Assembly: GCA_013214355.1 (NCBI GenBank)
Contig: JABSSL010000001.1
Span: 24,404-88,403, forward strand
Length of the DNA stretch: 64,000 nucleotides
Reading direction: 5' to 3'
Source: Saprospiraceae bacterium
GTDB taxonomy: Bacteria; Bacteroidota; Bacteroidia; Chitinophagales; Saprospiraceae
The translations under genes were made by a program, and so were the position numbers. How positions within the stretch are numbered: the stretch's first letter is position 1; each line of letters starts with the position of its first letter. Of this stretch, positions 40,556 through 45,778 are shown piece by piece. Below the pieces are notes generated by a model. The model searched no databases. It was not told the DNA's origin and was given only the letters and a program-made list of their open reading frames with translations.

Positions 40556-41113
40556 ATGCTATCTGTAAAAGGACACAAGAGCTGCCTGTGGTTATTTTCT
40601 ATTGCCCTCCTCTTAGGATCTTGCCAAATTGACGACAGCCTTACAGACATTAACCCTCCTGAAGAAGAAGAACCTGAAGAAGATGTAATTGCGCCTTATC
40701 CAGGTGTGGATGAAGCCCTTTGGGTATACTTTGACCGTTATGAACGGGAAGGAGTATTGCGTGGGGTGACCATCGACCTGCGCCAGGCAGAAATTACGGG
40801 TGTGATTGAAGAAATTGAGGGGGAAGGGGTAGCCGGCCAATGTACCTATGGCTCCCACCGATCCAATCATGTACAAATCGACGAAACCTTTTGGAATCGA
40901 GCCCCTGAACTACTACGAGAATTTGTAGTCTTCCACGAATTAGGGCACTGCGACTTGGCCAGAGATCATAGAGAGGCTACTAATCCCGATGGCACCTGCC
41001 AAAGCATCATGGCAAGCGGTACAGGTGATTGTCGCGACAACTATCGATTCAACACTCGAGAAAGTTATCTTGATGAGTTGTTCGACCCTAACTTCATTGG
41101 AGATCTCTTTTAA
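40556..41113 (+). CDS. Metzincin-like zinc metalloprotease lipoprotein
   Basis: A 185-residue protein with lipobox LLGSC (Cys23) and an acidic spacer (PPEEEEPEED). The zinc motif is HELGHCDLARDH (His127, Glu128, His131 and His138), followed by SIMASG, which fits the Met-turn of metzincins. The third His is one residue later than in the standard HExxHxxGxxH pattern. It is probably surface- or periplasm-anchored. No substrate is evident. Confidence 0.75.
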   Translation: MLSVKGHKSCLWLFSIALLLGSCQIDDSLTDINPPEEEEPEEDVIAPYPGVDEALWVYFDRYEREGVLRGVTIDLRQAEITGVIEEIEGEGVAGQCTYGSHRSNHVQIDETFWNRAPELLREFVVFHELGHCDLARDHREATNPDGTCQSIMASGTGDCRDNYRFNTRESYLDELFDPNFIGDLF

Positions 41114-41315: not shown

Positions 41316-41687
41316 GTGAAGATTTATCCCCTCATATTGTGTTGTCTTATTTTTATATCCGGCATTCGTCCTTGGGACGGTGGCAGCATATGCCAAGAGC
41401 TGCATGCACAGTACGAGCATACTGATCATGAGGATGAATCTTGCCACCAATCAACTACAAAGGGTAAATGCTGTAAGCCTCCCACTCATTCCGAAGAATC
41501 TCCGACCGAGGAAGACCCTTGTGCAGATGGCTGTCATTGTTTCTGTTGCATCTCCATTATTCTTCCAGCATTGGACACACCTAATTTGGTCTACCCTCAG
41601 AAAAAGCCTCAATTACGAGGGTGGGAAGTAAGCCTATACACCCACGATTTCACCCACCTCATCTGGCACCCTCCTCAACTCGGATAA
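41316..41687 (+). CDS. Cys/His-rich small exported protein (DUF6660-like), metal-associated
   Basis: A 123-residue protein starting at GTG 41316, with a short hydrophobic start (YPLILCCLIFISGI) and a middle rich in His, Glu and Cys (HTDHEDESCHQ, GKCCKPPTHSEE, CADGCHCFCCISI). This pattern matches small proteins that precede metal-related TonB receptors in Bacteroidota. It probably binds or senses copper or a similar metal in the periplasm. The following gene is a receptor with two HMA domains. A TACCTTTA box ends 4 bp before the start codon. Confidence 0.65.
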   Translation: MKIYPLILCCLIFISGIRPWDGGSICQELHAQYEHTDHEDESCHQSTTKGKCCKPPTHSEESPTEEDPCADGCHCFCCISIILPALDTPNLVYPQKKPQLRGWEVSLYTHDFTHLIWHPPQLG

Positions 41688-41871
41688 ATACACCCGTATT
41701 TATTCGTATCAAATCATTGCATTATTACCGATGGATTCCCTTGTAACAGGGAGGGTTAATCGTATTTCTACATTTTCATGGTCTAGGAAGTTCAATACAT
41801 TCGGCTGCTTCTTGCCGATACCTGGAAATTTGAACTACGCCTGCCATCGGTAGCATAAAATCTATGCTTAG

Positions 41872-44730
41872 ATGAGAAATATACTATCAGCAACCTGCCT
41901 GATGTTGCTTTGCCTAGTCGCGGAGGTAGGTCTTAGTCAAAGAGATACCTCCAGTTTATTTGTGGATGGCGTATGTGGAATGTGTGAAGATCGAATTGAG
42001 ACAGCGGCTTCAAAGGTGAAAGGAGTGATCCAAGCGGATTGGGATGTTGATTCCCGCATCCTTAACCTAATAACCAAATCTAATTATAAGGAAAGCAAAC
42101 TACATAAAGCGGTTAATGCCGTTGGACATGATACAGAAAGTGTAAAAGCCAGTGATGAAGCCTACAATAAGCTGCACGCTTGCTGTAAATACCGAGATCC
42201 CGATCAAATTGCTACACATCATAAGGATCACGATGACCATGAGAACCATAGGGAAGACGATGGCATCAAATTTTTCGTAGATGGTATTTGTGGCATGTGT
42301 GAGGACCGGATTGAAACTGCCGTGCAAAAGGTAGAGGGCGTAGAAAAGGCGGACTGGAACGTAGACAACCGCATGCTGTCCGTAGCATTTGCGGGGAAAA
42401 AGATAGAGGAGATTATCCTCCATCAAGCGGTGGCAGCGGCCGGGCATGACACCCGAAAAGTCAAGGCCAGTGAGGAAGCTTACGACAAGCTACACGACTG
42501 CTGTAAATATCGTGACGCCTCCGTAGTAGCCGAGCATAGGCCCAAAGATATCTTTGAAAAGGCTCCGGCTAGTCTAAGTGGTAATATCCTAGTGGAGGAA
42601 AATGGGAAAGCGGTACCCTTACCGGGGGTCAACATTTATTGGTTAGATGCCAAACCAGCCGCCGTTACGGACACAGAAGGTAAGTTTAACTTGAAGCGTC
42701 CGGAAGGTGCGAATCAGGTGGTAGTTAGCTACGTTGGGTACTATTCGGACACCATTGCTCTGACCCAAGAAACCGCTATAAAGGTTACCCTAACTCCCGG
42801 TACTACCTTGGAAACTGTGGAGGTGGTTTATCAGAGAAAGGCTATAGAGGTATCCTTTGTAGAACCCATTCTGATACAGCAAATCGGTCGCAAAGAATTG
42901 CTAAAGGCGGCTTGCTGTAATTTAGCGGAGAGCTTTGAAACCAATCCTGCTGTTGATGTTTCATTTACCGATGCGGTTACCGGAGCTCGCCAAATTGAAA
43001 TGCTAGGCCTAGCTGGTCCTTATACCCAGATCACTAGAGAGAATCTGCCCGATGTACGCGGCCTGGCCTCCATTTATGGACTGGTATACATCCCCGGTCC
43101 TTGGGTTAAAGGCATTCAATTGGCCAAAGGCCCCGGCTCCGTCATCAATGGCTTTGAGAGTATGACGGGGCAGATTAATGTTGAACTCAAAAAGCCAGAA
43201 GAAGGAGAACGAGCTTACTTCAACCTTTATGCTAATCAAGGAGGGCGTATTGAGGGCAATGCCAATGCCCGTTTTGAAGTCGGGGACAACTGGTTCACTA
43301 GTTTTTTGGTCCATGGGAATTCGCAGCAACAGAAAAATGATCGCAATCAAGATGGTTTTCTCGATATGCCTATTGGTACAGGATGGACAGCTGTAAATCG
43401 TTGGAAGTACCAAGGGGATGATGGATGGAATAGCCAATTTGGCATCAAAGTAACTCAGTTCGATAAGACCAGTGGCCAGCTGAACTTTGACCAAGATGCC
43501 AACCAAAACATAGCCTGGGGAGCTCGGATGCAAACCCGCCGCCTAGAAGGATGGGCTAAAATTGGCCGGGTTTTCCAAAATCGTCCCGATGCCAGTATTG
43601 GTTTTCAACTTACTGGTTCCTTGCACTATCAAGATGCTTCCTTTGGCACCACTCGTTACGATGCAGATCAGCAATCCTTTTATGCTAATCTCATTTATTC
43701 AGAAACACTAGGTGATCCAGCACATAAGCTGAATTCAGGCCTTAGCCTCCAGGCGGATCAATTTGAAGAATGGCTGGCGGAAGGCTTCTTTGAAAGAAAT
43801 GAAGTGGTGCCCGGGGCATTTGTGGAATACACCTATCTGCCCAATGATAATTTCACAGCCGTACTTGGATTGCGAGCCGATCATCACAATCAATTTGGCT
43901 TCTTTCTAACCCCTCGGTTGCACCTACGCTATGCCGCGAATGAGCAGAGTGTATTCCGCCTTTCCGCAGGGCAAGGAAGAAGAACTGCCAGCATCATCGC
44001 CGAAAACTTAGGTATGTTAGCTTCTGCCCGTTCTTTTGTATTGCAAAGCGATGGAGGAAATTCACCCTATGGTCTGAATCAAGAAGTAGCTTGGAATTTT
44101 GGTCTGAATTGGCGCCAGACTTTCATTATTCAAAACCGAGAATTGATCATCACTGTAGATGGGTACCATACGCGATTTGATCAGCAAGTAGTAGTAGATT
44201 ACGATGCTACTCCAAGGGAAGTTCGCTTCTATAATTTAGACGGAAAGTCCTTCTCTAATACCTTCCAAGCTCAGCTGGATTATGCCGTATTGAGCAATTT
44301 GGATTTGCGGATTGCTTATCGTTTCAACGATGTGCAAGCAGATTATCAGCAAGGAAGATTGGAGCGGCCTTTCGTAGCGCGCCACAGAGCCTTCGCCAAT
44401 GTAAGCTACCAGCTGGGAGAGGAATGGGACTTTGATCTAACCTTCAATTGGCAAGGAGTCAAGCGCATTCCGTCGACAGCTGCCAATCCAGCTGAGTTTC
44501 AAGTGGCTGACCGTTCGCCAGATTTTTTGATGACCAATGCCCAAGTCAGCAAGAATTTTGGGGAGCGCTTGCGGGTATATGTAGGAGGTGAGAATCTCTT
44601 CAACTTCGTCCAATCCCATCCTATCTTGGGAGCCAACGATCCTTTTGGGGATTACTTTGATAGTTCTTTGGTATGGGGGCCGATCTTTGGTCGCATGCTT
44701 TACGCAGGTGTGCATTACACCATTGAATAA
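41872..44730 (+). CDS. TonB-dependent receptor with two N-terminal HMA domains
   Basis: A 952-residue outer-membrane protein. After a signal peptide (ending GLSQ) come two heavy-metal-associated repeats, each with VDGxCGMCEDRIE (Cys35/Cys38 and Cys140/Cys143) and a final KLHxCCKYRD. A His-rich linker (THHKDHDDHENH) lies between them. Next are a CarboxypepD_reg-like domain (~233-315: LSGNILVEENGKAVPLPGVNIYW), a plug with AACCNLAESFETNPAVDV and QIEMLGLAGPYTQI, and a C-terminal barrel ending YAGVHYTIE. This plug type is known in copper/heavy-metal-related receptors. I infer that the HMA pair binds the metal in the periplasm next to the plug. It is likely co-regulated with the Cys/His-rich gene upstream. 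Confidence 0.9.
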   Translation: MRNILSATCLMLLCLVAEVGLSQRDTSSLFVDGVCGMCEDRIETAASKVKGVIQADWDVDSRILNLITKSNYKESKLHKAVNAVGHDTESVKASDEAYNKLHACCKYRDPDQIATHHKDHDDHENHREDDGIKFFVDGICGMCEDRIETAVQKVEGVEKADWNVDNRMLSVAFAGKKIEEIILHQAVAAAGHDTRKVKASEEAYDKLHDCCKYRDASVVAEHRPKDIFEKAPASLSGNILVEENGKAVPLPGVNIYWLDAKPAAVTDTEGKFNLKRPEGANQVVVSYVGYYSDTIALTQETAIKVTLTPGTTLETVEVVYQRKAIEVSFVEPILIQQIGRKELLKAACCNLAESFETNPAVDVSFTDAVTGARQIEMLGLAGPYTQITRENLPDVRGLASIYGLVYIPGPWVKGIQLAKGPGSVINGFESMTGQINVELKKPEEGERAYFNLYANQGGRIEGNANARFEVGDNWFTSFLVHGNSQQQKNDRNQDGFLDMPIGTGWTAVNRWKYQGDDGWNSQFGIKVTQFDKTSGQLNFDQDANQNIAWGARMQTRRLEGWAKIGRVFQNRPDASIGFQLTGSLHYQDASFGTTRYDADQQSFYANLIYSETLGDPAHKLNSGLSLQADQFEEWLAEGFFERNEVVPGAFVEYTYLPNDNFTAVLGLRADHHNQFGFFLTPRLHLRYAANEQSVFRLSAGQGRRTASIIAENLGMLASARSFVLQSDGGNSPYGLNQEVAWNFGLNWRQTFIIQNRELIITVDGYHTRFDQQVVVDYDATPREVRFYNLDGKSFSNTFQAQLDYAVLSNLDLRIAYRFNDVQADYQQGRLERPFVARHRAFANVSYQLGEEWDFDLTFNWQGVKRIPSTAANPAEFQVADRSPDFLMTNAQVSKNFGERLRVYVGGENLFNFVQSHPILGANDPFGDYFDSSLVWGPIFGRMLYAGVHYTIE

Positions 44731-44938: not shown

Positions 44939-45778
44939 ATGATCCTAGAGAACCATGTCATTAGCTCAGACCTACAAGCTTATATCGAAGCCATTTTCCA
45001 CTTCGAAGGCTTCCAACCCGACCACACTATTGAACGGGTAGTACCCACCGGTCATATCTTTCTCATCTTTGAACTAGACGGGATACCCCGGAACACCTTT
45101 GACAATGATACTTTAGTACCACAGGCAACCTATACCGAAGCCTGGATCTCCGGTATGCACAAACGCTACATCTCCATCTCCGCACACCAAGAATCCGAGA
45201 TGTTTGTCATTCAGTTTAAACCTACCGGCGCCTATCCATTTTTACACATACCTATCCACGAATTGAATGGCATAGTCGTTTCTGCCGAGGAGATTGTGGG
45301 GTCCGAGATTAATGCGCTTCGTCAAGCCTTGCTAGAGACAGAAGACAATGCCGTCAAGTTTCAGGCTGCCGAGGAATGGTTAAACCAGCGATACCGGAAA
45401 GACCTGACTCCTCCTCCGGCCATCTTAGAACTGGTGGATCGACTCAAGAAAGCTCCGGCATTAACTGCCTCAGAGCTCACGACACTTATCCAATCCTATC
45501 CCTATTCCCAGAAGCACTTGATCAACCAATTCAAAAAATACTTAGGCCTTACCCCCAAATACTTTCAACGGATTTTCCGATTCAATGAGATTCTGGCCAA
45601 GATCTATCAAAAACAAACGCTATCCTGGACTCAGATATCCTACGACTGTGGTTACACCGATCAATCCCATTTTATTAAGGAGTTTCGGCACTTCTCAGGC
45701 TTCAATCCACAAGAGTTTTTAGATCAAAACTTCAGTGATGAGGAACCCAATTTTTTCCCTTTAGATCGCGAAGGTTAA
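44939..45778 (+). CDS. AraC-family transcriptional regulator (soluble)
   Basis: A 279-residue protein: an N-terminal ~120-residue beta domain of the DUF6597 type (IERVVPTGHIFLIFELDG, FVIQFKPTGAYPFLHIPIHEL) and a C-terminal AraC HTH pair (QKHLINQFKKYLGLTPKYFQRIFRFNEIL, SWTQISYDCGYTDQSHFIKEFRHFSGFNPQEF). No membrane helices. It lies downstream of the metal receptor but has a 208-bp gap before it, and the next genes (DUF1761, DUF4287) are probably its own neighbours, so its targets are not obvious. Confidence 0.9.
   Translation: MILENHVISSDLQAYIEAIFHFEGFQPDHTIERVVPTGHIFLIFELDGIPRNTFDNDTLVPQATYTEAWISGMHKRYISISAHQESEMFVIQFKPTGAYPFLHIPIHELNGIVVSAEEIVGSEINALRQALLETEDNAVKFQAAEEWLNQRYRKDLTPPPAILELVDRLKKAPALTASELTTLIQSYPYSQKHLINQFKKYLGLTPKYFQRIFRFNEILAKIYQKQTLSWTQISYDCGYTDQSHFIKEFRHFSGFNPQEFLDQNFSDEEPNFFPLDREG

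Follow-up and report, generated by a model that had tools for sequence, protein, structure and literature searches.

An open reading frame (ORF) at positions 41872 to 44730 of a 64,000-nucleotide stretch of DNA from a Saprospiraceae bacterium (contig JABSSL010000001.1; the whole stretch is called the window here) encodes a TonB-dependent receptor with two HMA domains at its N-terminus, and a small cysteine-rich ORF lies directly upstream of it. The protein is rather probably a copper-import receptor to which the first periplasmic Cu(I) acceptor is tethered, and the upstream ORF would place it under copper-sensing control. Copper as the metal, the import direction, the hand-over between domains and the regulation by the leader are what we infer from the domains, fusions, gene linkage, cysteines and spacing described below. 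This arrangement suggests that some bacteria physically join the copper gate to the protein that takes copper from the gate.

Architecture of the HMA-receptor protein

The features of the receptor ORF are as follows.

41872..44730, + strand: TonB-dependent receptor with two N-terminal HMA domains, 952 amino acids (Pfam, AlphaFold2 model, fold search)
41872..41937, + strand: putative signal peptide, residues 1-22, judged by eye from the sequence, with a helix at residues 4-19 in the model
41956..42186, + strand: HMA repeat 1, residues ~29-105, CGMC at 35-38 and CC tail at 104-105
42217..42261, + strand: His-rich linker HHKDHDDHENHREDD, residues 116-130, not conserved
42268..42504, + strand: HMA repeat 2, residues ~133-211, CGMC at 140-143 and CC tail at 210-211
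42577..42822, + strand: CarboxypepD_reg-like domain, residues 236-317 (Pfam)
42904..42942, + strand: plug motif KAACCNLAESFET, residues 345-357, with Cys348-Cys349, near-invariant
43345..44727, + strand: TonB-dependent beta-barrel, Pfam match at residues 492-909 and strands to 951 (Pfam, model, fold matches)

A preliminary description of this DNA had placed two CGMC-containing HMA repeats before the CarboxypepD_reg and plug domains and had named an HMA profile search as a check. The description was borne out by Pfam, by the AlphaFold2 model and by fold comparison. The HMA profile PF00403 matched the 952-amino-acid ORF over two stretches (E 6.4e-14, 52.5 bits, cut-off 24.8), and a search of the own genome gave 34.7 and 28.8 bits for the single repeats, both over the same cut-off. 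When the HMA pair was folded alone, it matched the copper chaperone CopZ (2qif; Z 11.5, root-mean-square deviation (rmsd) 1.3 A, 67 residues aligned) and MerP (1osd; Z 10.9), and its best fold matches were copper chaperones. The receptor model has a mean predicted local distance difference test score (pLDDT) of 78.9, and values mainly in the 80s-90s over the HMA repeats.

The receptor part was identified by CarbopepD_reg_2 (residues 236-317, 45.4 bits, cut-off 32.2) and by the barrel family PF00593 (residues 492-909, 84.5 bits, cut-off 27). The plug family PF07715 remained sub-threshold in the window receptor (20.2 bits against 23.9) and passed in the relative L166 (26.1 bits). Compared with structures of TonB-dependent transporters (TBDTs), the model matched BtuB (Z 27.4, rmsd 3.1, 499 aligned) and OprC (6z8q, Z 24.3); a PDB sequence search with the receptor part returned 0 matches. 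The earlier proposal of a physical link between metal-binding folds and an outer-membrane receptor is upheld. An assembly or frame artefact behind the fusion was ruled out, as open-frame fusions occur in many independent assemblies.

The plug motif KAACCNLAESFET had been taken as a mark of metal-related receptors, a view that is upheld. Its two adjacent cysteines (CC) are near-invariant among related receptors and missing in all ten distant receptors examined (<=30% identity), where the adjacent HMA protein with a CC tail (HMA-CC) is missing too. The pairing has exceptions, namely some CC-plug receptors without HMA-CC and the own-genome paralogue L105 described below. His481 and His684 are also near-invariant in the receptor alignment and are possible further ligands.

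Both CxxC and the CC tail were present in 24/24 fused HMA domains of the first locus set, a count free of selection for CC. The members of alignment A1 were picked for having CC, so the invariant CC of that alignment holds by construction; the profile hma.hmm was built from these same HMA sequences. Standalone HMA proteins adjoining unfused receptors likewise carry CxxC and the CC tail, and a second CopZ-like gene, found farther upstream in Dyadobacter and its relatives, has no CC tail. A tree of the HMA repeats gave no resolution, with too few columns. The His-rich linker of the preliminary description does lie between the repeats, although it is specific to the window sequence; it was ruled out as an essential part, being missing in the sister receptor L008. 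Other His-rich linkers occur in L149 and L167.

Two further gene arrangements were observed. A paralogue in the own genome with 37% identity (L105; G000:C80, 3305-6378) combines a CC plug with a divergent HMA gene, and the HMA paired with it has neither CxxC nor a CC tail; this set, in which a small ORF with W[HQ]PP accompanies the divergent HMA gene and the CC-plug receptor, is also found in L151 and L153. Exported proteins with two unlike HMA domains each are encoded in L110 (3923-4531), L111 (3975-4580) and L115 (75-713), where they adjoin an outer-membrane-like protein (~260 amino acids) and a small Cys-rich ORF, and these gene sets are possibly another branch of the system.

Distribution and history of the fusion

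A locus search was conducted over 84,980 species genomes, and the best 80 of 186 related loci were taken. HMA is fused to the receptor N-terminus, in 1-4 copies, in the window and in 13 of these best 80 of 186 loci. The closest relative among them, L008, shares 92% identity over the receptor part and has four HMA copies against two in the window receptor. At most of the other loci the same HMA has a small gene of its own, which usually lies immediately downstream of the receptor gene.

In a family sample of 120 genomes, HMA-CC was matched in 88 (E <=1e-8) and the receptor in 97. The family census holds 105 receptor rows (the second row of a split receptor in G089 was left out, and one row is the second half of a contig-broken receptor), of which 28 are N-terminal fusions, 5 are C-terminal fusions with continuous frames on reading, and 57 are without HMA; separate HMA genes lie upstream in 11 and downstream in 4. 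HMA-CC is fused to or beside the receptor in 48/105 rows. Among the N-terminal fusions, 20 have one HMA copy, 7 have two and 1 has three. The locus search and the family census overlap because some L loci and G genomes are the same assemblies, such as L009 and G037. In a phylum sample of 198 genomes, 59 contained the receptor; 5 of the 62 receptors were fused, 30 had an adjacent HMA gene and 27 had none, and HMA was fused or adjacent in 33 of the 40 receptors with >=38% identity. Four fused cases of this sample lie outside the family (L166, L167, L168 and L169); L168 and L169 have tandem HMA, and L168 is without a CarboxypepD match.

The preliminary description regarded the tandem HMA fusion as unusual. 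The sequence data contradict this, since the census shows many receptors of the same architecture, and a unique architecture is ruled out by this recurrence. A tree of 101 receptors, built by a quick method after 24 near-duplicate Dyadobacter/Emticicia rows of 125 were left out, requires at least 6 changes between the N-terminal, C-terminal and unfused states and at least 9 changes of HMA copy number among the N-terminal fusions. Judged from these comparisons, the fusion arose several times, at both periplasmic ends and with varying copy number. The preliminary description did not mention the CC tail, separate HMA genes adjacent to the receptor, fusions at the C-terminus or the likely leader role of the small ORF.

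Locus L036 (4995-8551) shows the order HMA, small Cys-rich ORF, HMA and receptor; the second HMA and the receptor frame overlap, and the arrangement is a possible intermediate before fusion. At G263:C2:78549-80709 the receptor is split over two frames, one row having an internal TAA; this is a broken copy or an assembly error.

The small upstream ORF as a candidate leader

The region before the receptor contains the following features.

41316..41687, + strand: small exported Cys/His-rich ORF, 123 amino acids, GTG start, candidate CruR/CutF-like regulator
41520..41549, + strand: Cys cluster CADGCHCFCC, residues 69-78 of the small ORF
41664..41675, + strand: WHPP at the C-terminus, residues 117-120, with three residues left before the stop
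41688..41871, + strand: gap of 184 nucleotides between the small ORF and the receptor, with a weak to moderate RNA fold

The small Cys/His-rich exported ORF named in the preliminary description is real and is conserved upstream of related receptors. It is the first gene before the receptor, 184 nucleotides away, and has an N-terminal hydrophobic stretch, the cluster CADGCHCFCC and the end WHPPQLG. Its ratio of non-synonymous to synonymous substitution rates against the L008 homologue is 0.09 over 122 codons, which indicates purifying selection. Besides the receptor, it alone clusters at the fused loci (6/14 by strict clustering), and blastp found homologues at 9/13 other fused loci (E <=0.01; L020 weaker). 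A Cys-rich ORF ending in [HQ]PP plus 1-6 residues was found at 27/33 other N-fused, 7/90 unfused (two of the seven judged chance matches) and 0/5 C-fused receptors. Overall, a Cys-rich ORF precedes 122/141 CC-plug receptors and, in contrast, 3/11 others; the upstream ORF was chosen by Cys count in this comparison, and the wrong ORF was chosen for L007. The last cluster Cys and PP are 41 residues apart in the window ORF and 41-46 in 33/33 aligned homologues, counting only Cys >=35 residues before PP (L031 and L059 were left out of the alignment as chance matches, and one of two L131 matches was kept). The distance from the first CC to the last cluster Cys is 1-73 across the aligned ORFs.

Two leaders of this type have been characterised. 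In Bordetella, a copper-repressed TBDT operon begins with CruR, which belongs to DUF2946. Both its CXXC (90-93) and its RAPP (139-142), which stands three residues before the C-terminus, are required, and the spacing between them matters (PMC9426467). A Cys-to-PP spacing of 48 is derived from the numbering in that paper. The related leader CutF has CxxxC and ends in a Pro-rich stretch, and copper raises expression in its case (PMC9973294). This kind of leader is already known in the phylum, because Bacteroidota are reported among the main phyla of CutF-like genes in the same source. In Caulobacter, a DUF2946 gene and a TonB receptor gene share one down-regulated stretch (PMC4176598). The window ORF has the features of this type of leader: a Cys metal motif, here CxxxC within the Cys cluster, a C-terminal Pro-Pro motif, here WHPP three residues from its end, and a limited spacing. 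The small ORF is likely a CruR/CutF-type copper-sensing leader rather than a metal store or chaperone; this reading is favoured because of the Cys cluster, the terminal PP and the constant spacing, and because CruR stands in the same way before a Bordetella TBDT. One of ten homologues, L133, passed DUF6660 (34.2 bits, cut-off 27), and a full-text literature search on DUF6660 returned no paper.

Other regulators were considered. An RNA switch in the 184-nucleotide gap was set aside because the fold of 41688-41890 has a z of just -1.68, with 11/200 shuffles as good. The downstream AraC gene (44939-45778) was ruled out as a conserved regulator, as it is not conserved at fused loci. On the upstream side, a lipoprotein-like ORF of 185 amino acids (40556-41113) carries the HExxH-like motif HELGH, and its match to a phage metallopeptidase is sub-threshold (17.6 bits, cut-off 23.7).

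Proposed copper import, rival explanations and known systems

If copper is imported, the barrel and plug would take it in, free or chelated, with Cys348-Cys349 on the route. The two HMA domains, hanging from the periplasmic N-terminus, would receive Cu(I) leaving the plug and pass it on to copper proteins or pumps, and their fusion and duplication would raise local concentration and capacity. The small ORF would be translated first, and its nascent chain may bind copper via the Cys cluster as the ribosome reaches W[HQ]PP, which would adjust receptor expression to the copper supply. This reading is favoured because the HMA fold is nearest to copper chaperones, HMA-CC is linked to receptors and has been fused to them repeatedly at both periplasmic ends, the CC tail and the plug CC are conserved, the neighbours are mostly of copper type and the small ORF resembles CruR. 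More tentatively, Bacteroidota may own a separate family of CC-plug copper receptors with HMA-CC as the dedicated plug-exit acceptor; repeated fusion at either end, in 1-4 copies, would then make a one-polypeptide outer-membrane relay set by an upstream nascent-chain copper sensor.

Several observations weigh against copper import with a tethered acceptor. HMA chemistry is also compatible with Zn, Hg, Cd or Ag. At the plug CC (CCNLAESF) no Met stands at +4, so that the CxxxM copper motif of OprC is lacking there, and the position of Cys348-Cys349 is not readable from the model because residues 312-383, and with them the plug, have a pLDDT <50. The window small ORF is without any Pfam match, DUF2946 (PF11162) included; in the homologue L012, DUF2946 scored 21.8 bits, below the cut-off of 23.7. 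The anaerobe Parabacteroides distasonis, presumably without haem-copper oxidases, carries the three-gene set, so the system is not confined to aerobes and supply to these oxidases is not its whole purpose. COX1 was found in 188/198 phylum-sample genomes; all 59 with the receptor have it, but the 10 without it are too few to conclude from. The P. distasonis locus L177 (NZ_OY725762.1) is recorded as a plasmid; ftsK and smpB flank the receptor, and the record is perhaps a chromosomal fragment. HMA-CC also occurs in efflux and detoxification settings, so the module alone is not evidence of import. It forms the C-terminus of CusB-like RND adaptors (L170 1375-2955 by Pfam; L171 2763-4397 by sequence) and of the outer-membrane protein L172, and is combined with DUF3347 in L173 (Pfam) and L174-L176 (by sequence), with a multicopper oxidase beside it in L176. 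In L114 the cluster around it contains a P-type ATPase of CPH type and a DUF326 protein, which we take to be copper-storage-like, and CPC-type ATPases lie near the unfused receptors L028 and L048. In L053 (7252-8325, Pfam on L053 only) and other Emticicia loci, a beta-propeller gene lies between the receptor and the HMA gene.

These settings bear on copper tolerance, in which HMA would capture excess periplasmic Cu(I), the receptor would be an anchor or would export or recycle a copper chelator, and copper would raise expression. The fusions to RND adaptors and the nearby multicopper oxidase and copper ATPases fit this explanation, as does a CusA/CzcA gene downstream of a related receptor in Haliscomenobacter. 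It is nevertheless unlikely, since TonB-dependent barrels normally import and the fused loci share no conserved efflux gene, the small ORF being the sole conserved neighbour. The characterised leaders point both ways: CutF raises expression with copper (PMC9973294), whereas CruR, the one before a TBDT, is copper-repressed (PMC9426467). Import of a copper-loaded chelate (chalkophore), from which the HMA domains would strip Cu(I), is improbable as a separate explanation. An acceptor next to the plug would be well placed for ligand exchange, and the known copper TBDTs include the chelate importer CrtA, with MbnT named too (PMC12914433); however, the surroundings of the fused receptors show no conserved biosynthetic genes, and sequence does not separate this case from the wider one of copper import with a tethered acceptor, to which it belongs. 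Uptake or detection of another metal (e.g. Zn, Hg or Ag) is the least likely, for although sequence and fold searches also matched HMA domains of MerP and zinc ATPases, and CutF-like leaders without Cys motifs adjoin Ni/Co genes (PMC9973294), the best fold matches are copper chaperones, the neighbours are mostly of copper type and the leader is Cys-rich, a type linked to copper genes.

Copper import into a tethered acceptor would address two open questions, copper uptake in Gram-negative bacteria and the fate of the toxic ion past the TonB-dependent plug. With its own acceptor, such a receptor lets copper hand-over be tested directly within a single protein, and the natural variants, which carry 0-4 HMA copies at either end, are a ready-made series. 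The leader ORF, if its role is true, would extend copper-sensing nascent-chain control to a large Bacteroidota receptor family.

Copper TBDTs, periplasmic copper chaperones and CutF-like leaders are known already, and the HMA-receptor fusion is without a published description that we found: full-text literature searches, with subscription papers and preprints outside their scope, returned none. The accessible text of a Bizionia copper paper has only an OprC-like receptor and separate HMA proteins (PMC11213822). TonB-dependent copper receptors include OprC (PMC8610252) and CrtA (PMC12914433). OprC/NosA has the same TBDT fold as the window receptor, and OprC uses a plug cysteine for copper (PMC8610252). 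The window receptor has CC in its plug but no CxxxM there, and it has periplasmic HMA domains. There was no match to an OprC-type NCBIfam TonB copper receptor model at E <=1, the presence of this model in the library not having been checked. The chaperones of TccA/PccA and PcuB/PcuC are not known to be HMA proteins. These systems, like the window, pair a copper TBDT with a chaperone for copper in the periplasm, and the available part of the source describes no fusion (PMC12617631). CrtA/BfrG of Bordetella with its leader CruR is likewise a copper TBDT after an exported Cys-motif ORF ending in PP, with a long gap between them (162 nucleotides against 184 in the window; PMC12914433, PMC9426467). 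In contrast to the window ORF, CruR is a DUF2946 protein; the accessible sections of the same papers report no conserved Cys in CrtA, and the third Bordetella gene is PepSY_TM, with no HMA.

The chaperones CopZ, Atx1 and MerP and the HMA repeats of CopA/ATP7B share the fold, CxxC and tandem repeats with the window HMA domains, which differ from these in being periplasmic, tethered to an outer-membrane receptor and extended by a CC tail, and in a loop before the first Cys that is one residue shorter. The DUF3347-HMA and CusB-HMA proteins of Bacteroidota (L170-L176) contain the same HMA-CC module as the window, although its partners there are an RND adaptor, DUF3347 or an outer-membrane protein.

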